Assembly (NCBI RefSeq): GCF_014279595.1 | Contig: NZ_CP047943.1 | Coordinates: 2,292,422-2,356,421 of the forward strand | Length of the DNA: 64,000 nt | DNA from: Synechococcus sp. RS9909 | GTDB lineage: Bacteria > Cyanobacteriota > Cyanobacteriia > PCC-6307 > Cyanobiaceae | Reading direction: 5' to 3' | Made by a program: the position numbers and the translations under genes | Notes under the pieces: generated by a model | Told to the model about the DNA's origin: nothing | The model's database searches: none | The model's input: only the letters and a program-made list of their open reading frames with translations | Part shown: piece by piece, positions 14,323-22,716 of the stretch | Layout: every line of letters starts with the position of its first letter | How positions within the stretch are numbered: position 1 is the first letter of the stretch

Positions 14323-16191
14323 TCAGAACTTGAAGGTGGTCTGGATCAGACCGCCCCAGAGGTTGAACTGACCGTCGTAACCCTGGCCGTTCTGAACCAG
14401 ATTGCGGGTGTTCTGGCCGAGGGGACGGGACATGTAGAAGATCGCTGGGGTCACAGCGATGTTGTCGGTCACCTGGAAGTTGTAGTACCACTCGAAGACA
14501 TAGTTGCCATCGAAGGGAGTGGTGCTCACAAAGTTATCGAACTTGTTGCGCTTAGCGCCCTCCAGATTGGTCGCGAAGGTGGGCTGACCGAAGGCGAAGC
14601 CGAAGTCGTTGCCCTTGAGGAACACGTCATCCCACTTCATGCCCACCATCCAGCTCTGGCTGGTGACCGGGGAACCGGGCAGCTTGTTGCTGGTGGTGTT
14701 CTGGTTGATCGCCCAACCCACGGAGAAGGAGGGGATCCAGCCAGCGTTCTTGGGCTGCCAGTAGGCGTTCAGGGCGTAGCTGTTGGTGCTACCGCTCACA
14801 CGGTTACCGGTTGATTTCGCCAGCTTGTCGTAGAAGTCCGAATTGTTCGGGGTTGTGTAAGCGAGCTGGTTGCAGTTGTTGTTCCAAGTGCCATCAAACT
14901 TGACGAAGCTGGTACCGCGACGCAGGCCGTTGCCGGAATCACACTGGCCGTAACGATAGGCAAAAGCCGCACCCCACTCAGGTCCGCCGTAACCGATCTG
15001 AGCCAGGAAGCTGGCTTCCGAGTTGTCGGTCATGAAGCCACCGCTGTTGGGATTGGTGGTATTACCATTGCCATCGTCAGCCACGTAGTTGACCGACACA
15101 CTGAAGGCGTTGGCGCCCTTCTTGGTGTTCTGCTTCCAGTAAGCACCAATACCCTGACCGGTCTCCTTGTTGTACACACCACTGGTGCCCATCAGAGCAG
15201 TCCAGTCGAGGATCTTGGCGCCACCCTTGTTGTACACAGAAGGCCAGAGAGCCACCATTTCGGTGTTACGAATCAAACCACCGGCGTAGACGGTGAACTC
15301 TTTGCCGACCGGGAACTTGTAGTACAAGCGGTCAAGGACCACCGCGTTGCTCACGGTGTTGTTCACACCGGAATCGGTGGCGATGTCCAGAGCGGTGAGG
15401 TTCACACCGGCGCCAGCGAAGGCGTTGCTGCTCTTGGTGAAGTTGCCAGCGCGCAGACGGGCATACAGCTTGTCCTTACCGGTGAAGCTGGTGTCGAACG
15501 CCAGACGTTGGTCGTAGTTGAAGGTGAAAGCGCCGTAGTTGGCGTTGTAGGCGTTCGCGCCACCCTGACGGCCAGTATTGCTGAAGTTTTTGGCGTCCTT
15601 GCCAACGTTGCCGTTACTATCGGCCTTACGACGTACGGCAGCCGTGAAGGCCTGACCGTCAATGTTGAACTTGCGGCTGCGGTAGATGTACTGGGAACCG
15701 TTGTTGCCACCAGCGTTGACAGCACCGGTCACGAAGGTGGTCTGACCCTTCAGTTTGGTGGTGGTGGAGAACTGGGTCGCTTCCAGTTCGCCAACGCGGG
15801 CCTCGAGGCCATCCACACGACCCTTGAGGATCGCCAGTTCACGCTCGAATTCCTTCATCAGGCGCTTGAGCTCGTCGGTCACTTCGGTGACGCGGTCGAG
15901 ACAGGCGTTCAGCAGGGCGGCCGCTTCAAAGCGCGTCATGGCGCGCTGACCGCGGTAGGTGCCGTTGGGGTAACCGGCAACGCAGCCGTAGCGCTCGATC
16001 AGATTGCTCAGGGCCTGGTAGGCCCAGTCGGTCGGATACACATCCGAGAACTGGGTGATGCTGGTGACCTGCTCGCCGGAAGCGGCGTAGTCAGACACAC
16101 CGTTGATGTTCAGCTCAGCAGCATTTGCCGCCACAGGAGCCAGAAGGCCCAGGGCAGCAGGCGCCACCAGCAGTTGCTGGAAAAGTTTCAT
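14323..16191 (-). CDS. SLH-OprB family outer-membrane porin (second of three)
   Basis: A 622-aa porin. The signal peptide is MKLFQQLLVAPAALGLLAP ending at VAANA|AEL, followed by an SLH domain, a coiled coil and a long OprB barrel terminating in QTTFKF. It is the longest of the three paralogues; extra length lies in barrel loops, for example the basic segment near residues 185-210. The start ATG 16191 is preceded by a purine-rich GGACCCC stretch. The N-terminal 160 or so residues are nearly identical to its neighbours while the barrel diverges. Major porins of marine picocyanobacteria are of this type. Confidence 0.9.
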   Translation of the reverse strand: MKLFQQLLVAPAALGLLAPVAANAAELNINGVSDYAASGEQVTSITQFSDVYPTDWAYQALSNLIERYGCVAGYPNGTYRGQRAMTRFEAAALLNACLDRVTEVTDELKRLMKEFERELAILKGRVDGLEARVGELEATQFSTTTKLKGQTTFVTGAVNAGGNNGSQYIYRSRKFNIDGQAFTAAVRRKADSNGNVGKDAKNFSNTGRQGGANAYNANYGAFTFNYDQRLAFDTSFTGKDKLYARLRAGNFTKSSNAFAGAGVNLTALDIATDSGVNNTVSNAVVLDRLYYKFPVGKEFTVYAGGLIRNTEMVALWPSVYNKGGAKILDWTALMGTSGVYNKETGQGIGAYWKQNTKKGANAFSVSVNYVADDGNGNTTNPNSGGFMTDNSEASFLAQIGYGGPEWGAAFAYRYGQCDSGNGLRRGTSFVKFDGTWNNNCNQLAYTTPNNSDFYDKLAKSTGNRVSGSTNSYALNAYWQPKNAGWIPSFSVGWAINQNTTSNKLPGSPVTSQSWMVGMKWDDVFLKGNDFGFAFGQPTFATNLEGAKRNKFDNFVSTTPFDGNYVFEWYYNFQVTDNIAVTPAIFYMSRPLGQNTRNLVQNGQGYDGQFNLWGGLIQTTFKF

Positions 16192-16335
16192 GGGGTCCTC
16201 ACACCAAAATTGAGGGAAAAGGCCGTAGAGAAGGTGACGCATCAAAGTGCGCACACTCCTCCATGACCCACGCAAGGTACTCAGGCCAGCCCAGCCGCGA
16301 ACAGGAGGCCGGTCGAGAATCTGTCCCAAAAGAAG

Positions 16336-16360
16336 GCCCTCCGGCCAGTGACCGGAGGGC
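16336..16360 (-). terminator. rho-independent terminator of the third porin
   Basis: A nine-base-pair stem (GCCCTCCGG / CCGGAGGGC) with a 7-nt loop is followed on the minus strand by CTTCTTTTGG. It sits about 40 bp past the stop of the third porin. Confidence 0.85.
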
Positions 16361-16399
16361 GAGGCGGGGGCGGGATGCCCCCTGGCAAGGAGTCCTGAA

Positions 16400-18184
16400 T
16401 CAGAACTTGAAGGTGGTCTTCACCAGACCGCCGAACTGGTTGTAGGAGACGCCTTGAGTCGCCGTACCCAGGGGACGGCTCAAATAGAAGATGGCTGGGG
16501 TGACCGAAATGTTGTCGGTGACCTGGAACATGTACCACCATTCCCAGGCGTACTGACCGTCACGCACCAACACATCTTCAGCGTCTGAGGCCTGACTGCC
16601 GGAGAAGGTCTTGTTGCTGCCGAGACCCAGGGAGGTCACGAAGCCCTGCTGACCCACAGCCATACCGGCGCTGTTCCCTTTCAGGAACACGTCAGCCCAT
16701 TGCAGACCCACATACCAGGACTGGGTGGTCGCACTGTCAAAGTCATAGCCCAGCAGCGTGGTGTCTTTGGCACCACTGGTGCTGTTCAGACCCCAACCGG
16801 TGGAAATCGACGGTATCCAACCGGCGTTTTCGGGCGTCCACCAGGCGCTCACGCCCACCGAGTTGGTGTTGCCGAGGGTGCCCACCTGCGTGGCCAGGGG
16901 TGTGCCCGTACTCTGATACAGGTTGCCCCAGTTCTGCGAGCTGTAGTTGTAGGCAGCCGCCAGACCCCAGTTGTCCTTGGCATAAGCGACCTGAACAGTT
17001 CCGGTTCCAGCAGCTCCATCGGTAGCAATACCGCCAACGTTGGGGTTGCCGTCATTGCCGTTGGCTGACACATAGTTGGCACTGATGCTGAAGGCATCTT
17101 TCTGCCACCAGATACCAGCACCGGAACCGAGGTTCAGGTTGTAGGTGCCAGGTGCACCGGCATAGGTGAAGAAATCGAGGACGCTGTCAGCCGGATAGGC
17201 GCTCGGCCACACCGCCAGCATGTCGTCCTGACGCACAACACCACCAGCGGTGACGGTGAAGTCGCTGCCGACGGGGAACTGGTAGAAGAGGCGATTGACG
17301 CTGATCGCGTTGCCGATCGTACCTTCCTCGAAGGCGATCTCCATGCCGGAAGCCGTGGCAAAGGTGCCGCCGAAGGGACTACCAATGCCCGTGGAAGCAT
17401 TGAAGCCGAAGGCGCTGTTCTGGAAGTTGCCGGTGCGCAGACGTACCTTCAAAAGATCCTTACCCGTGAAGCTGGTGTCGAGATCCAGCTGCTGGTCGTA
17501 GTTGAAGACCGTGGCGCCCAGGTTGGAGTTGGCCAAGGTGGCCATTTTTTCGGTGTTCTTCGTACCGCCAGCCGCAGTGATGGCTTTATCGAAGATTCCA
17601 CGAACAGTTGTTGACTTTGGCAAGGGGTAACCACCCACCAACTCGCCGTCGGCATTAAACACATTGACGTTTTTGGCATCACCACCGAAGGTGTTGGCGC
17701 CGATCACGAAGGTGGTTTTGCCCTTCAGTTTGGTGGTGGTGGAGAACTGGGTCGCTTCCAGTTCGCCCACTTTGGCTTCGAGGCCATCGACGCGGCCCTT
17801 GAGAATGGCGAGCTCCTTCTCGAATTCCTTGATCAGACGCTTGAGCTCGTCGGTCACTTCGGTGACGCGGTCGAGACAGGCGTTCAGCAGAGCGGCCGCT
17901 TCAAAGCGGGTCATCGCCCGGTTGCCCCGGTAGGTGCCATTGGGGTAACCGGCAACGCAGCCGTAGCGCTCGATCAGGTTGCTCAGCGCCTGGTAGGCCC
18001 AGTCGGTCGGATAAACGTCAGAAAACTGGGTGATGCTGGTGACCTGCTCGCTGGAGCTGGCGTAGTCGGAAACGCCGTTGATGTTCAGCTCAGCAGCGTT
18101 CGCGGGCTTGGTGGCGTCAACAGCCAGTGGAGCCAGAAGGCCCAGGGCTGCAGGCGCCACCAGCAGTTGCTGGAAAAGTTTCAT
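16400..18184 (-). CDS. SLH-OprB family outer-membrane porin (third of three)
   Basis: A 594-aa paralogue with the same signal-peptide core (MKLFQQLLVAPAALGLLAP), but with an insert (LAVDATKPANA) before the cleavage site. The SLH domain, coiled coil (EFEKELAILKGRVDGLEAKV) and OprB barrel ending in KTTFKF follow. The barrel differs in loops from the other two, suggesting different pore selectivity. The start ATG 18184 is fixed by the signal peptide. About 260 bp of non-coding DNA lies upstream and presumably carries its promoter. Confidence 0.9.
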   Translation of the reverse strand: MKLFQQLLVAPAALGLLAPLAVDATKPANAAELNINGVSDYASSSEQVTSITQFSDVYPTDWAYQALSNLIERYGCVAGYPNGTYRGNRAMTRFEAAALLNACLDRVTEVTDELKRLIKEFEKELAILKGRVDGLEAKVGELEATQFSTTTKLKGKTTFVIGANTFGGDAKNVNVFNADGELVGGYPLPKSTTVRGIFDKAITAAGGTKNTEKMATLANSNLGATVFNYDQQLDLDTSFTGKDLLKVRLRTGNFQNSAFGFNASTGIGSPFGGTFATASGMEIAFEEGTIGNAISVNRLFYQFPVGSDFTVTAGGVVRQDDMLAVWPSAYPADSVLDFFTYAGAPGTYNLNLGSGAGIWWQKDAFSISANYVSANGNDGNPNVGGIATDGAAGTGTVQVAYAKDNWGLAAAYNYSSQNWGNLYQSTGTPLATQVGTLGNTNSVGVSAWWTPENAGWIPSISTGWGLNSTSGAKDTTLLGYDFDSATTQSWYVGLQWADVFLKGNSAGMAVGQQGFVTSLGLGSNKTFSGSQASDAEDVLVRDGQYAWEWWYMFQVTDNISVTPAIFYLSRPLGTATQGVSYNQFGGLVKTTFKF

Positions 18185-18368
18185 TGGGGTCCTCACACAG
18201 AACGGGCGCAATGCGCCAACCCGCAATGTGGGGGATTACCTGCCGTTAACCATTCAGGGATGTGACAGAGATTGCGATGTCTTGTAACAAGGGAAACCAA
18301 AATCCAGGCAAACGGCTCGTTTTGATACCAAACGCAGCGGGGCATCAAGACGTCTTGGCCAAAACGAT
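18185..18368. promoter_or_regulatory. upstream region of the third porin
   Basis: This gene-free region lies between the porin start and the neighbouring terminator. It is more A+T-rich than its surroundings. On the minus strand it contains a GTTACAAGAC element at about 18282-18291, a single half-site reminiscent of the RpaB-binding HLR1 repeat, but no second half at the right spacing. I could not assign -35/-10 boxes with confidence. Confidence 0.35.
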
Positions 18369-18395
18369 GCCCCCGACCGGAAACCGGCCGGGGGC
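18369..18395 (-). terminator. rho-independent terminator after the 17-codon ORF
   Basis: A 12-bp stem (GCCCCCGACCGG / CCGGCCGGGGGC, one mismatch) with an AAA loop is followed on the minus strand by ATCGTTTTGG. It lies 52 bp past the stop of the 17-codon ORF at 18448-18501. No other minus-strand gene needs it, so it supports a short discrete transcript. Confidence 0.8.
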
Positions 18396-18447
18396 TCTCG
18401 CCGGGTCCGCTCTGGCGCGGAACCGAATGATCAGTCAGATGGTGCCG

Positions 18448-18501
18448 TCAGCCGGCGTTCTCCGCGATCAGCAGACCCTGCATGAAAGAACTGGAACTCA
18501 T
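18448..18501 (-). CDS. 17-residue ORF with strong ribosome binding site
   Basis: The ORF encodes MSSSSFMQGLLIAENAG. It starts with ATG 18501, preceded by an extended Shine-Dalgarno AGGAGGAGG at 18507-18515 (minus strand) with five bases between it and the ATG. This is the most complete ribosome binding site I noticed in the window. A terminator follows 52 bp after the stop. The peptide has no membrane helix, no cysteine and no recognisable leader. It could be a functional micropeptide, a leader peptide, or part of a small RNA. The 5' region overlaps possible N-terminal codons of the divergent glycosyltransferase gene. Confidence 0.5.
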   Translation of the reverse strand: MSSSSFMQGLLIAENAG

Positions 18502-18604
18502 GGACACCTCCTCCTGAATGGATGGTTGAACGCCGGTGTTGCTTTCGAAGTCAACCTCACCTCGGAAGGTCGAGGATGGCTTCACATCACTGCGATCTGG
18601 ACGT

Positions 18605-20179
18605 TTGAACCATAACGGAACTGGCGTCGTTTCGGGACGCAGGGCTGCCGTCACACCGCTCCTACTGTGGGCCCTCACCCTGCTGCTCTGGCTGCCCTGG
18701 CTGGGGAACCAGCCCCTCCGTGACTGGGATGAGGGCCTGGTCGCCACTGTGTCGCGATCGACGGTGTCGCGATCCACCGATGGACTGCTGGCCTTCAAAT
18801 GGGATGACGCCTATCTGAACAAACCGCCGGGCTTGCACTGGCTGATCGGCGGGACTGTCCAACACTTCGGAGAAGCCGACGGGGTGGTGCGACTGGTGCC
18901 CTGCCTGCTCTCCAGCCTCGCCGTGCCACTGCTCTACTGGCTGCGCTGCGGCCTGAATCCAACACCGGCAACCCCGGACGCACGCCGACAGCGGGATCGT
19001 CGGGCCCTGATGGCAGCGCTGATCCTGATGACCCTGCTGCCGATGGCGCGCCACGGGCGGCTGGCGATGCTGGATGGCACCCTCGTGAGTTGCTCCCTGC
19101 TGCTCTGGAGCGGCTGGATCGCCAGCAGAACCACCCATTGGCATGCCCTGCTGGCAGGACTGGGAGGCAGCGGCGTTCTGCTGCTCAAACCACCGGCGCT
19201 GCTGGGATTTCTCCTGATCGCGCTGGCGATCAGCCTCTGGGAACGGTGGCCCTGGCGCACCCCGGCGCTTGGCTGGTTCGGCCTTGGTCTGCTGCCCGGG
19301 ATCGGATGGCATGGCTGGCACCTGCACCAGCGGGGTGCCGATGCCCTGGTGATGTGGGGCGGCCAGGGTCTGGGTCGGATCACCGAGGTGGTGGGAGAGA
19401 ACCAGGGCGCCTGGGTGATGCCGATCACGGAAGTGCTCGAGGGGGGCTGGCCCTGGTTGCTGCTGCTGCCCACGGGGTTGGCCTGGGCCTGGCACCACCG
19501 GCAGCAGAGCAGCGGCCGCTGGGAACTGGGACTGCTGATCGGCAGCGCCGCCCTGGTGCTCCCCCTACGCACCCAGCTGCCCTGGTACAGCCATCTGCTC
19601 TGGGCTCCAATCGCCCTGCTCTGCGGCGAGGGCCTGGCCCAGCTGCTGCAGACGGGCAAGCCGCGCTGGCTGGGCTGGGGCTTTCAGCTTCTCGGTGTGC
19701 TCAGCCTTGTGCTGGCTGGATTGACCAGCCTTGTTGCTGCAACCAACCAGCTGCCGATTGCCGCCCTCCTGCTCGCCGGGCTCGGGCTGCTGATCGGTGG
19801 CGCTGGCCTGCGCGGCAGCTCGCTGCGTTCGCGGCAGCGCGGCCTGGTGGCCGTGCTGGTGGGCTGGGGGCTGGCCCTGCTGATGCTCTGGCAGAGCCAG
19901 CTCTGGCTCTGGGAACTGAACGAAAGCTGGGATCCCAGGCCCATCGCCGGCCTGATCCGCCAGCTCCCCGACGATGCCGTGGTCGTTCTCAAAGGCCCGA
20001 CCCGACCGTCGCTGGGCTGGTATGCCGGCCGGGAGTTGCGCCGTCCCAGCGAGACCGACAGCGACACAGGCGCCAACGAGCACTGGCGAGTGAGTCGGCA
20101 GCAGGAACGCGACTGCGAGAAGGTCGGCTCCGCACAGGAGTGGGACTGGGCTCTCTGGCATTGCCCCGCAACACCTTGA
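18605..20179 (+). CDS. GT39/ArnT-like membrane glycosyltransferase
   Basis: A protein of about 524 aa with around 11 hydrophobic helices. The first periplasmic loop has the family signature: a DWDEGLVA acidic motif, then LNKPPGLHWLIG, where the acidic residues contact the lipid-linked sugar. Such enzymes move a sugar from polyprenyl phosphate to lipid or protein on the outer face of the membrane. The start is uncertain: TTG 18605 leaves room for the divergent 17-codon ORF, whereas GTG 18536 would add 23 residues. A 15-bp tandem duplication at 18749-18778 inserts VSRST into the catalytic loop. DUF2079 follows 28 bp downstream. Confidence 0.82.
   Translation: MNHNGTGVVSGRRAAVTPLLLWALTLLLWLPWLGNQPLRDWDEGLVATVSRSTVSRSTDGLLAFKWDDAYLNKPPGLHWLIGGTVQHFGEADGVVRLVPCLLSSLAVPLLYWLRCGLNPTPATPDARRQRDRRALMAALILMTLLPMARHGRLAMLDGTLVSCSLLLWSGWIASRTTHWHALLAGLGGSGVLLLKPPALLGFLLIALAISLWERWPWRTPALGWFGLGLLPGIGWHGWHLHQRGADALVMWGGQGLGRITEVVGENQGAWVMPITEVLEGGWPWLLLLPTGLAWAWHHRQQSSGRWELGLLIGSAALVLPLRTQLPWYSHLLWAPIALLCGEGLAQLLQTGKPRWLGWGFQLLGVLSLVLAGLTSLVAATNQLPIAALLLAGLGLLIGGAGLRGSSLRSRQRGLVAVLVGWGLALLMLWQSQLWLWELNESWDPRPIAGLIRQLPDDAVVVLKGPTRPSLGWYAGRELRRPSETDSDTGANEHWRVSRQQERDCEKVGSAQEWDWALWHCPATP
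18749..18778 (+). repeat. 15-bp tandem duplication inside the GT39-like gene
   Basis: GTGTCGCGATCGACG (18749-18763) is followed directly by GTGTCGCGATCCACC, 13 of 15 bases identical. The reading frame is kept and yields VSRSTVSRST between the DEG and KPPG motifs. Confidence 0.8.
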
Positions 20180-20207
20180 AACGTCACAGCTTTGAAACGT
20201 CACAGCC

Positions 20208-21611
20208 ATGAACCAATCACCGCCCCATCGCGCTCCGGCGCCGCCCCCCGCCGCGCTCTGGCTCTGGTCTGTGCTGCTCGGCCTGCTCGCCTGGGGAGCT
20301 TCCGCCCTGCGCCACGCGCTGCTGCAAAGCAACGCCTACGACCTCGGCCTGTTTGATCAATGGGCCTGGCTGATCGGCTCTGGCCACGCCCCGATCTCGT
20401 CGATGGAAAACGTGCATGTGCTGGCCGACCACGGCGCCTGGCTGTTCTATGCCGCCGGCGCCGCCTACGCCCTGCTGCCCTCGGTTCAGTGGCTGCTGGC
20501 CAGTCAGGCCCTGGCCCTGGGGCTGACGGCGGTGCCGATCTGGATGCTCGCCAGCCAGGCAGGCCTGTCGCGGCATCGCTGCTGGCTCGCCTGCGGCCTC
20601 TGGTGGCTGCAGCCGGTGGTGTTCAACGCCAGCTTGTTCGACATGCATCCGGAAACCTGGGTGATGCCGGCTGTTGCCCTCGCCCTCTGGGCGGAGCGGG
20701 CTGAACGGCCCCGGCTCTGGCTGGCGTTGCTGCTGTTGATGCTGGGCGCACGCGATGGCCTGGTGCTGATCACGGCGGGGATGGCGCTCGATCTGGGCTG
20801 GCGCCGGCGCTGGCGCTGGAGCGCGAGCGCGGCTGCCCTCTCGGGTCTCTGGCTGCTGCTGCTGAGCCGCTGGCTGTACCCCCTGCTCCGCGATGGCGAG
20901 GGTCCGAAAGCGGCTGGGCGCATGTTCAGCCATCTGGGCGGGGCACCGGGCACGGTGCTGCAGAGCATCGACTGGAGCGGCGGCGGCCTGTATCTGCTGC
21001 TGCTGGCCTTGCCCTGCCTCTGGCTCTGGCGACGGCGCTCCCTGCCCACCCTGCTGATCGCCGTGCCACTGTTGCTCACCAACCTGCTGTCGGCATCGCC
21101 CAGTTACCGCACCCTGATCCACCACTACAGCCTGCCCCTGGCGGTGGTGGCGGTGGTGGCCGCCATCGATGGCCTCAAGGCCAGCAAAACCGAAGCGTCC
21201 CACCCCTTCCCCTGGACCCTCACCTGGGCTGTGATCTGCTGGTTGGCCCTGGCCAAACCCTGGTTTTTCACCGGCCCCTACCTGGAGCGGCTCAACGTGT
21301 TGCAGGACGCCCGATCGGCCATCGCACAGGTGCAAGCCGGCGATGCCGTGTTGACCACCAGCTATCTGGTGCCCCACTTGAGCCACCGCCAACGGATCGC
21401 CTTTCCCAAAAAAAGCTTCAGCGATGCACTCCAAGGTGATCAGTGGACAACGTTGGTTTTGCGTCCAGATGATCCCGGCTGGGGTTCGAGCCGCCGAATC
21501 CAGCAGCAGCTGCTCGACAGTGCCGCCTCGCAGAATTGGAACTGTCGCGTCTGGCCTTCAGGGTTGACGCTCTGCCGCCGCCCTGGAGTCGCCAGCAACC
21601 CTACAAATTAA
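20208..21611 (+). CDS. DUF2079 multi-pass membrane protein
   Basis: A 467-aa polytopic protein. The DUF2079 pattern is recognisable: SNAYDLGLFDQWAW near residue 45, then FDMHPE around 145, followed by LLMLGARDGLVLITAGMAL. The fold resembles GT-C glycosyltransferases, and a sugar-transfer role is suspected in the family but not demonstrated. It is probably transcribed with the preceding GT39-like gene and ends at a bidirectional terminator shared with psbD. About ten helices are apparent. Confidence 0.85.
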   Translation: MNQSPPHRAPAPPPAALWLWSVLLGLLAWGASALRHALLQSNAYDLGLFDQWAWLIGSGHAPISSMENVHVLADHGAWLFYAAGAAYALLPSVQWLLASQALALGLTAVPIWMLASQAGLSRHRCWLACGLWWLQPVVFNASLFDMHPETWVMPAVALALWAERAERPRLWLALLLLMLGARDGLVLITAGMALDLGWRRRWRWSASAAALSGLWLLLLSRWLYPLLRDGEGPKAAGRMFSHLGGAPGTVLQSIDWSGGGLYLLLLALPCLWLWRRRSLPTLLIAVPLLLTNLLSASPSYRTLIHHYSLPLAVVAVVAAIDGLKASKTEASHPFPWTLTWAVICWLALAKPWFFTGPYLERLNVLQDARSAIAQVQAGDAVLTTSYLVPHLSHRQRIAFPKKSFSDALQGDQWTTLVLRPDDPGWGSSRRIQQQLLDSAASQNWNCRVWPSGLTLCRRPGVASNPTN

Positions 21612-21660: not shown

Positions 21661-22716
21661 TCAGAGAGCGTTTCCACGGGGCAGAACCTCTTCAGGGAAG
21701 ACGAAGTTTTCGTGCGGCTGGTCAGCCGGTGCCATCCAGGCACGCAGACCTTCATTCAGAAGGATGTTCTTGGTGTAGAAGGTCTCGAATTCGGGATCTT
21801 CTGCAGCGCGGATCTCCTGCGACACGAAGTCGTAGGCGCGCAGGTTGAGGGCCAGGCCGATGATGCCGATGGAGCTGGTCCACAGGCCCATCACAGGCAC
21901 GAACAGCATGAAGAAGTGCAGCCAGCGCTTGTTGGAGAAGGCGATCCCGAAGATCTGGCTCCAGAAGCGGTTGGCGGTGACCATCGAATAGGTCTCTTCT
22001 TCCTGGGTCGGTTCGAATGCCTTGAAGGTGTTCGACTGCTCACCGTCTTCAAACAGGGTGTTCTCCACGGTGGCGCCGTGAATGGCACAGAGCAGGGCAC
22101 CGCCGAGGATTCCGGCCACGCCCATCATGTGGAAGGGATTCAGGGTCCAGTTGTGGAAGCCCTGAAGGAAGAGCAGGAAGCGGAAGATCGCTGCCACACC
22201 GAAGGAGGGAGCGAAGAACCAGCTGCTCTGGCCGAGGGGGTACATCAGGAAAACGCTGACGAACACCGCAATCGGACCGGAGAAGGCAATGGCGTTGTAA
22301 GGACGGATGCCGACGAGACGGGCAATCTCGAACTGACGCAGCATGAAGCCGATCAGGGCGAAGGCACCGTGGAGTGCCACGAAGGCCCAGAGGCCACCGA
22401 GCTGGCACCAGCGCACGAAATCGCCCTGGGCCTCAGGGCCCCAGAGCAGCAGGAGGCTGTGGCCCATCGCATCGGCGGGGGTGGACACCGCAGCGGTGAG
22501 GAAGTTGCAACCTTCCAGATACGAGGAGGCGATGCCGTGGGTGTACCAGGAGGTGACGAAGGTGGTGCCGGTGAGCCAACCACCGATGGCCAGATAGGCC
22601 GTGGGGAAGAGGAGGATGCCGGACCAGCCGACAAAAACGAAGCGGTCGCGCTTGAGCCAGTCATCGAGGACGTCGAACCATCCCCGCTGTGGCGCGCGTC
22701 CTACAGCGATCGTCAT
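21661..22716 (-). CDS. psbD: photosystem II D2 protein
   Basis: D2 is a core reaction-centre subunit that binds P680 chlorophyll, pheophytin, QA and the non-haem iron. The 351-aa length fits. Visible landmarks are the [11 protein letters not shown] start, the tyrosine-D segment [10 protein letters not shown] (about residue 160), [18 protein letters not shown] carrying the P680-ligand histidine (about 197), and the ending [12 protein letters not shown]. There is no psbC overlapping its 3' end, where cyanobacteria usually have psbDC. This is therefore probably the monocistronic psbD2 copy. The start ATG 22716 has no Shine-Dalgarno and is preceded by palindromes. Confidence 0.97.

Follow-up and report, generated by a model that had tools for sequence, protein, structure and literature searches.

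The window analysed here is a stretch of 64,000 nucleotides from Synechococcus sp. RS9909, which carries on its minus strand a 17-codon reading frame placed between a long Shine-Dalgarno (SD) sequence and a terminator (Table 1), a kind of frame that automated annotation tends to overlook. The frame, a nine-base SD five bases ahead of it and a terminator 52 bp past its stop had been pointed out in an earlier note on this DNA, and all three are present: AGGAGGAGG occupies 18515-18507 (minus) with a spacing of five bases to the ATG at 18501, and the terminator-like stem at 18395-18369, made of 12 pairs of which 11 are G-C, begins 52 bases past the ORF stop. The 3' end of the 16S rRNA, as read in the window's genome, is ...GGATCACCTCCTAA; over all 8 nt, AGGAGGTG (18512-18505) is perfectly complementary to this anti-Shine-Dalgarno end, and it is a better measure of the site than the nine-base AGGAGGAGG. 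The 2.6-Mb genome contains the combination of AGGAGGTG, N2-6 and ATG at 20 places, as against 3 for the reversed control; the arrangement SD-start-N18-20-AGGGTCTGCTGATCG has one occurrence in the window, and 100 shuffles gave none. Across the 68 sequences of alignment A1, conservation of GGAGGAGGTG within the SD is complete or at least 90%.

Table 1. Features of the small RNA locus and of its neighbours in the window.
Feature	Coordinates	Strand	Details
17-codon ORF MSSSSFMQGLLIAENAG	18448..18501	minus	ATG 18501, TGA stop 18450-18448
Shine-Dalgarno AGGAGGAGGTG	18505..18515	minus	AGGAGGTG is the exact complement of the 16S 3' end
5' structural domain	18528..18597	minus	helices 18597-18592:18533-18528, 18590-18584:18542-18536, 18583-18580:18550-18547
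Long hairpin	18403..18478	minus	18478-18471:18410-18403, 18465-18461:18421-18417, 18456-18453:18425-18422
Terminator	18363..18402	minus	lower stem 18402-18398:18367-18363, upper stem 18395-18369, T-rich tail
-10-like promoter box TATGGT	18609..18614	minus	TA-containing box at the same place upstream in many relatives
SLH-OprB porin gene, downstream neighbour	16400..18184	minus	Pfam OprB 3.8e-12, SLH 2.5e-10
psbD (D2 protein), upstream same-strand neighbour	21661..22716	minus	Pfam Photo_RC 5.9e-74

The predicted RNA spans about 18602 to 18363, or about 240 nt, with its start point at about 18602 placed by inference; a scan with the sigma-70 consensus found no promoter at this predicted 5' end. 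The earlier note had expected a small RNA of 130-200 nt, of which the small RNA stands and the size does not, as the RNA also includes a conserved structural domain 5' of the SD and comes to about 240 nt. Comparison among genomes shows a free-standing transcription unit with its own predicted promoter and terminator. The downstream porin gene starts about 180 nt past the terminator and is not part of the RNA, and psbD lies about 3.1 kb upstream with two opposite-strand genes in between. These two genes, a PMT-like glycosyltransferase and a DUF2079 membrane protein (18536-21611, plus), split psbD from the RNA in this lineage. The porin is one of two tandem porin-like genes at 14323-18226 (minus), whose almost identical N-termini suggest a recent duplication; the Pfam matches to SLH and OprB come from the second gene only. 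The start region of the porin, 18180-18199 (minus), reads TGTGTGAGGACCCCAATG, in which nine bases are complementary to UCCUCACAC in the Yfr1 core as given in excerpts of PMC4734099, and the window porin is probably a Yfr1 target.

The element is widely conserved among picocyanobacteria. A 221-base DNA query gave long matches in 29 of the 31 genomes of the genus (E 8.2e-40 or better), the two genomes without a long match being 85% and 63% complete, and such conservation excludes a chance origin of the ORF/SD arrangement. A protein query of the region, at the loose limit of E 10, gave matches in 164 of the 300 family genomes. From the picocyanobacteria 116 non-identical elements were chosen for resemblance in the core and for a string like the SD at a set distance, with neither start nor stop required; all of them open with ATG or GTG and run for exactly 17 codons to a stop. 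As this set came partly from a protein search, the test was repeated on 20 further loci from a search with a covariance model (R1), and 19 of them show the same A/GTG, 17 codons, and stop, with the pairs GTG and TGA (10 loci), ATG and TGA (five), and GTG and TAA (four). Seven of the 20 loci had weak protein-search matches; the 12 that come from genomes unmatched or uncovered by the protein search all keep the arrangement. The failing locus (L324, G011:C1:2023816-2023978) is a decayed second copy, with an intact one 5 kb away; it no longer has the SD and start, retains hairpin remnants and the terminator, and is also found by the DNA query. Among the picocyanobacterial sequences 94 distinct ones were scored, and each retains the start, the stop, and an open frame. 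The conservation of the frame in close relatives, which the earlier note had proposed as a check, is found both across the genus and in every scored sequence.

At the level of the order, R1 matches 145 of the 299 genomes sampled and 27 of the 35 genera, with a single match per genome in 144 of the 145. Among 20 listed of the 154 unmatched genomes, 19 are of 1.6-1.9 Mb (genera g18, g11, g56, g39, and g4) and are taken, by their size, as streamlined Prochlorococcus, and the remaining one is a 3.0-Mb draft (g47). Genus g9 (L310-L317) forms a divergent VSHSCIVKGLRFAEKAS-like subgroup which still has 17 codons and uses both TGA and TAA stops.

Relatives of the element occur well beyond the picocyanobacteria. 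R1 matches 63 of 386 phylum genomes, 30 of which lie outside the family (E 4.8e-12 to 0.009), and all 20 of the out-of-family loci that were fetched carry the frame. A pattern scan of named genomes, which prescribed the ATG and the distance from it to GGGTC and left the stop and the open frame free, found at least 116 loci, whose titles are cyanobacterial apart from one Streptomyces record and one bin. The codon count among the 116 listed scan matches is 23 in 98, 17 in 16, and 24 in one. The Streptomyces record, with 29 codons, is a chance match and is missed by R1; a bin titled ‘bacterium TMED88’, also among the listed matches, carries a Synechococcus-like element. Frames of 17 codons exist outside the picocyanobacteria too, in L158 (genome G431) and in two Thermosynechococcus records (L186 and L250), and the frame length is therefore treated as variable in the family and not as defining it.

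The reverse search points the same way. A model built from 25 distant sequences (R2), run over the window with a limit of E 10, matches it once, precisely at the element (E 0.0047), and finds 13 of 28 picocyanobacterial loci at E 0.01, and R1 for its part finds 21 of 27 distant loci, with the Streptomyces record among the six missed. A sequence-only profile is weak, its best window match (nhmmer E 0.11) also lying at the element and five of the 116 picocyanobacterial loci falling below 1e-3. In the distant form (75 sequences) the frame from codon 8 on pairs with the 3' strand, and the layout of hairpin and terminator is as in the picocyanobacteria. The GGGUC:GACCC helix closing the distant hairpin was partly imposed by the sequence selection; the stem inside it was not imposed, and it covaries, one of its pairs being C-G in 32 sequences, G-C in 16, A-U in 16, and G-U in eight.

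The 5' domain has a variable apical stem, and in 51 sequences 13 of its 17 pairs have changed on both sides, with a covariation score of 0.594 as against 0.264 for shuffled and at most 0.159 for slid alignments. In the long hairpin, as folded by RNAalifold from 68 sequences, codons 8-16 pair with the stretch directly 5' of the terminator and the stop codon lies in the loop. Here 97-99% of cells are paired; five of the 17 pairs have both-side changes and the others are nearly fixed. Hairpin and terminator together have 97.9% of cells paired, as against 91.5% in shuffled and at most 51.5% in slid versions, and each of the six innermost terminator pairs has changed on both sides in 10-31 sequences. 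The SD itself is largely paired in single-sequence folding (median unpaired probability 0.25 in picocyanobacteria and 0.37 in the distant form), and on these predicted folds it may not be freely exposed.

With half of the frame lying in a helix, the open frame could be a by-product of structure in a purely non-coding RNA. Codons 8-16 fit this explanation, as pairing accounts for most of their constraint and the stop test there does not separate the frames (picocyanobacteria, 0/26 single-base codon differences making or removing a stop in the true frame, 2/29 and 0/33 in the shifted ones); one shifted frame is open across 16 codons in 84 of the 94 sequences. Against it, codons 2-7 are variable and lie outside the consensus helices, and in the picocyanobacteria none of their 127 single-base codon differences makes or removes a stop in the true frame, whereas stops are involved in 12/121 and 12/94 differences in the shifted frames (p 1.4e-4 and 2.3e-5). 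Likewise, in the distant form the counts are 0/68 in the true frame and 14/90 and 13/74 in the shifted ones; in each of these comparisons, picocyanobacterial and distant, stop avoidance in the true over the shifted frame has p 3.2e-4 or less, with codon pairs that are not independent of one another. In the scored intact copies, every exchange of a start is between ATG and GTG and every exchange of a stop is among TGA, TAG, and TAA. A purely non-coding RNA is accordingly a very improbable explanation, and the frame is in all likelihood translated, as judged from these substitution patterns. The selection for translation that the earlier note had thought likely is upheld by the intact 94 sequences and by 19 of the 20 further loci; comparison shows start, frame, and stop to be under selection, to the extent that sequence can tell.

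Whether the peptide is the product that matters is a separate question. A micropeptide of 17-23 residues made from a small structured mRNA would agree with the strictly kept start, frame, and stop, with the recognisable consensus of the distant peptide (about MIESSKRMGHQVAVSRLCAGAVL), and with in-frame synonymous changes slightly above expectation (0.25-0.31 vs 0.20-0.27). However, the last third of the peptide is wholly different between the 17- and 23-codon forms, in picocyanobacterial codon 17 the second base varies freely and the third is mostly C, and codon 15 alternates between N and K. The fixed codon positions are mostly those paired in the hairpin, and the synonymous excess in picocyanobacterial codons 8-16 is not specific to the frame, since shifted frames show an equal one (0.35 vs 0.24 and 0.39 vs 0.31). 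A Pfam search of the peptide found no family. The earlier note had looked to conservation of the peptide through synonymous substitutions; the frame is indeed kept, but the synonymous signal is weak, at 0.26 vs 0.20 expected in codons 2-7 of the picocyanobacteria. Peptide conservation is hence not favoured as the main signal, free and fixed codon positions tracking pairing more than amino acids, and a functional micropeptide is unlikely. The act of translation looks better guarded than the peptide. As the signals for translation are under stricter conservation than the amino acids, the favoured reading is a small RNA with a dual function or gated by translation, not a functional peptide.

The neighbourhood of the RNA changes between lineages. 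In other lineages psbD or a cobB-like gene lies directly upstream of the RNA, and in several a porin gene lies downstream, often preceded by a short gene which we take to be PCD-like. Within 700 nt upstream, psbD is found at 16 of 102 picocyanobacterial loci and at 27 of 91 listed scan and phylum loci, a set that includes 14 picocyanobacterial loci, and cobB at seven of the same 91. A porin gene follows within 700 nt at 33 of 105 picocyanobacterial loci and within 2.5 kb at 44 of 76 listed scan and phylum loci. However, no porin is found at 67 of the 104 picocyanobacterial loci that have at least 1.4 kb of downstream flank, and a convergent gene is often there instead. A role in cis only is unlikely, because the RNA persists while its neighbours change; in the porin-flanked lineages it may also act in cis.

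These counts bear on the leader peptide, or attenuator, in which translation of the frame would decide read-through of the terminator into the porin gene. The anatomy of a leader ORF followed by a terminator suits it, as do the co-directional porins just counted. A candidate antiterminator in which the 5' arm pairs with the pre-terminator strand is 86% paired, and its covariation score of 0.135 exceeds all 500 shuffles (mean 0.096) and all slid versions (best 0.103). Yet the number of its pairs changed on both sides is equalled in 141 of the 500 shuffles, and its 5' arm is already engaged in the much better supported 5' domain. A second candidate, formed by pairing of the ORF end, has a score reached by 66 of 500 shuffles and is not clearly above them. 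Relatives are, moreover, reported as transcripts of about 200 nt in the excerpts of PMC6091082. As a general explanation the porin attenuator is rejected, the downstream gene being not conserved and the antiterminator covariation being mixed for one candidate and unclear for the other; overall, such a mechanism appears quite improbable. Of the micropeptide, leader peptide, and dual-function small RNA proposed in the earlier note, the dual-function small RNA fits best, and the leader loses ground since the downstream gene differs between lineages.

The RNA closely resembles two RNAs already described in other cyanobacteria. According to excerpts of PMC6091082, Sye_sRNA1 of Synechococcus elongatus UTEX 2973 is about 200 nt long and is the top sRNA in control and high-temperature cultures; its 53 homologs lie mostly downstream of psbD or cobB, and the one in Synechocystis 6803 is incorporated into sll1501. 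The present RNA is likewise predicted to be free-standing and of a size near 200 nt, is conserved in structure, lies near a som porin gene, and at part of its loci follows psbD or cobB. Unlike Sye_sRNA1, for which the same excerpts mention no reading frame, it has one of its own, and its copy in the window is separated from psbD by two genes. In UTEX 2973 the transcription starts of Sye_sRNA1 and somA are 2,714 nt apart (PMC6091082, excerpts); in genome G431, taken as S. elongatus-like and carrying tandem porins, the ORF starts 2,728 nt before the start of the second porin. The other relative is ncl0160 of Synechocystis and Nostoc, for which excerpts of PMC4734099 give 83 homologs and a likely peptide of 23-25 residues ending at all three stops, in a survey that excluded the marine Prochlorococcus/Synechococcus lineage. 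Both are conserved small RNAs with a ribosome binding site, an ATG/GTG start, and a short peptide that is likely translated, and TGA, TAG, and TAA interchange in the present RNA as well; the difference is in length, 17 codons in the window as against 23-25 residues.

Comparison shows homology between the window RNA and the psbD/cobB-linked RNAs of other cyanobacteria, as far as can be read from their sequences. Since published descriptions and synteny match, one family is concluded, and it is highly probable that the window RNA is the picocyanobacterial member of the Sye_sRNA1 / ncl0160 family. The family is thus one already described outside the picocyanobacteria, to which the picocyanobacterial form is added here. 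Two other picocyanobacterial RNAs come near to it in description. Yfr103 is likewise an abundant conserved picocyanobacterial RNA, but it is 290-328 nt long with seven paralogs in one strain (PMC5069720, excerpts), whereas the present RNA is shorter and mostly single. Yfr6 of MED4 and SS120 is a picocyanobacterial RNA of 239-244 nt; however, by the excerpts of PMC1242208, it has other neighbours and gave no Northern signal in WH 8102 or MIT 9313. On these partial descriptions both are ruled out as the identity of the RNA by length, copy number, and neighbours. A known Rfam element is excluded likewise, as the whole window at gathering score gave one tRNA only. Rfam searches at E up to 1 returned, for six loci including the window's own (L002), tRNA matches and one sub-threshold match, and for seven distant loci one sub-threshold match, with none at the element. 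One exact pattern of the element had no match in viral contigs. The literature searched was partial, with the original ncl0160 and marine-strain transcriptome papers outside it, and yielded Sye_sRNA1 and ncl0160 but no picocyanobacterial report of the RNA and no function for it: the passages seen of PMC7368042, PMC3610870, PMC7760959, and PMC6974561 contain nothing on it, and terms for it are absent from PMC2662882 and PMC5126843.

Abundance invites one further explanation. Homologs are reported, in excerpts of PMC6091082, to be exceeded in transcript abundance only by 16S rRNA and to be repressed under several stresses. An RNA this abundant, with a near-perfect SD, could act as a ribosome decoy that sequesters initiating 30S subunits and tunes global translation. 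The complement to the 16S 3' end would serve it well, running from 8 nt in picocyanobacteria to 10 nt in the distant form (AGGAGGUGAU), with the 16S end taken from the window's genome only. A decoy would have no need, however, of a closed, length-fixed frame and a covarying hairpin, its SD appears partly paired, and the darkness data for UTEX 2973 conflict, showing the RNA up in dRNA-seq and down after 12 h on Northern (PMC6091082, excerpts). A decoy role is therefore rated very unlikely.

The explanation that best fits these observations is that of a family member which forms a free-standing unit of about 240 nt, a translated structured RNA acting in trans whose hairpin is opened by the passage of ribosomes; taken as a whole, this is judged probable. 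In the predicted RNA a covarying 5' domain would be followed by a near-ideal ribosome binding site and the 17-codon frame, the second half of which would pair with the RNA just 5' of the terminator. Since a ribosome translating the frame would have to melt this hairpin between ORF and 3' strand, translation may gate the fold and, through it, how stable the 3' half is or how it pairs in trans. On this reading the RNA would act in trans, and the peptide itself would be secondary. Gating of the fold by translation is put forward tentatively, as a possibility short of even chances. For RS9909 itself, transcription, translation, and function are predicted from sequence. A wider proposal is more speculative and somewhat unlikely as it stands: a phylum-wide RNA would keep its mini-frame for the act of translation, and passage along the 17-23 codons would melt the hairpin, so that the RNA would gauge the capacity for translation and switch its stability or its pairing in trans accordingly.

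Picocyanobacteria dominate ocean photosynthesis, and they are now added to a family whose relatives in model cyanobacteria are reported, in excerpts of PMC6091082, to rank second only to 16S rRNA in transcript abundance, and for which the partial literature searched gives no function. With the frame, start, stop, and ORF-embedding hairpin kept across lineages, the question of whether this is a peptide gene or a small RNA can now be addressed with mutants. If the reading in which translation gates the fold is true, a reportedly very abundant, phylum-wide RNA would sense translation capacity.
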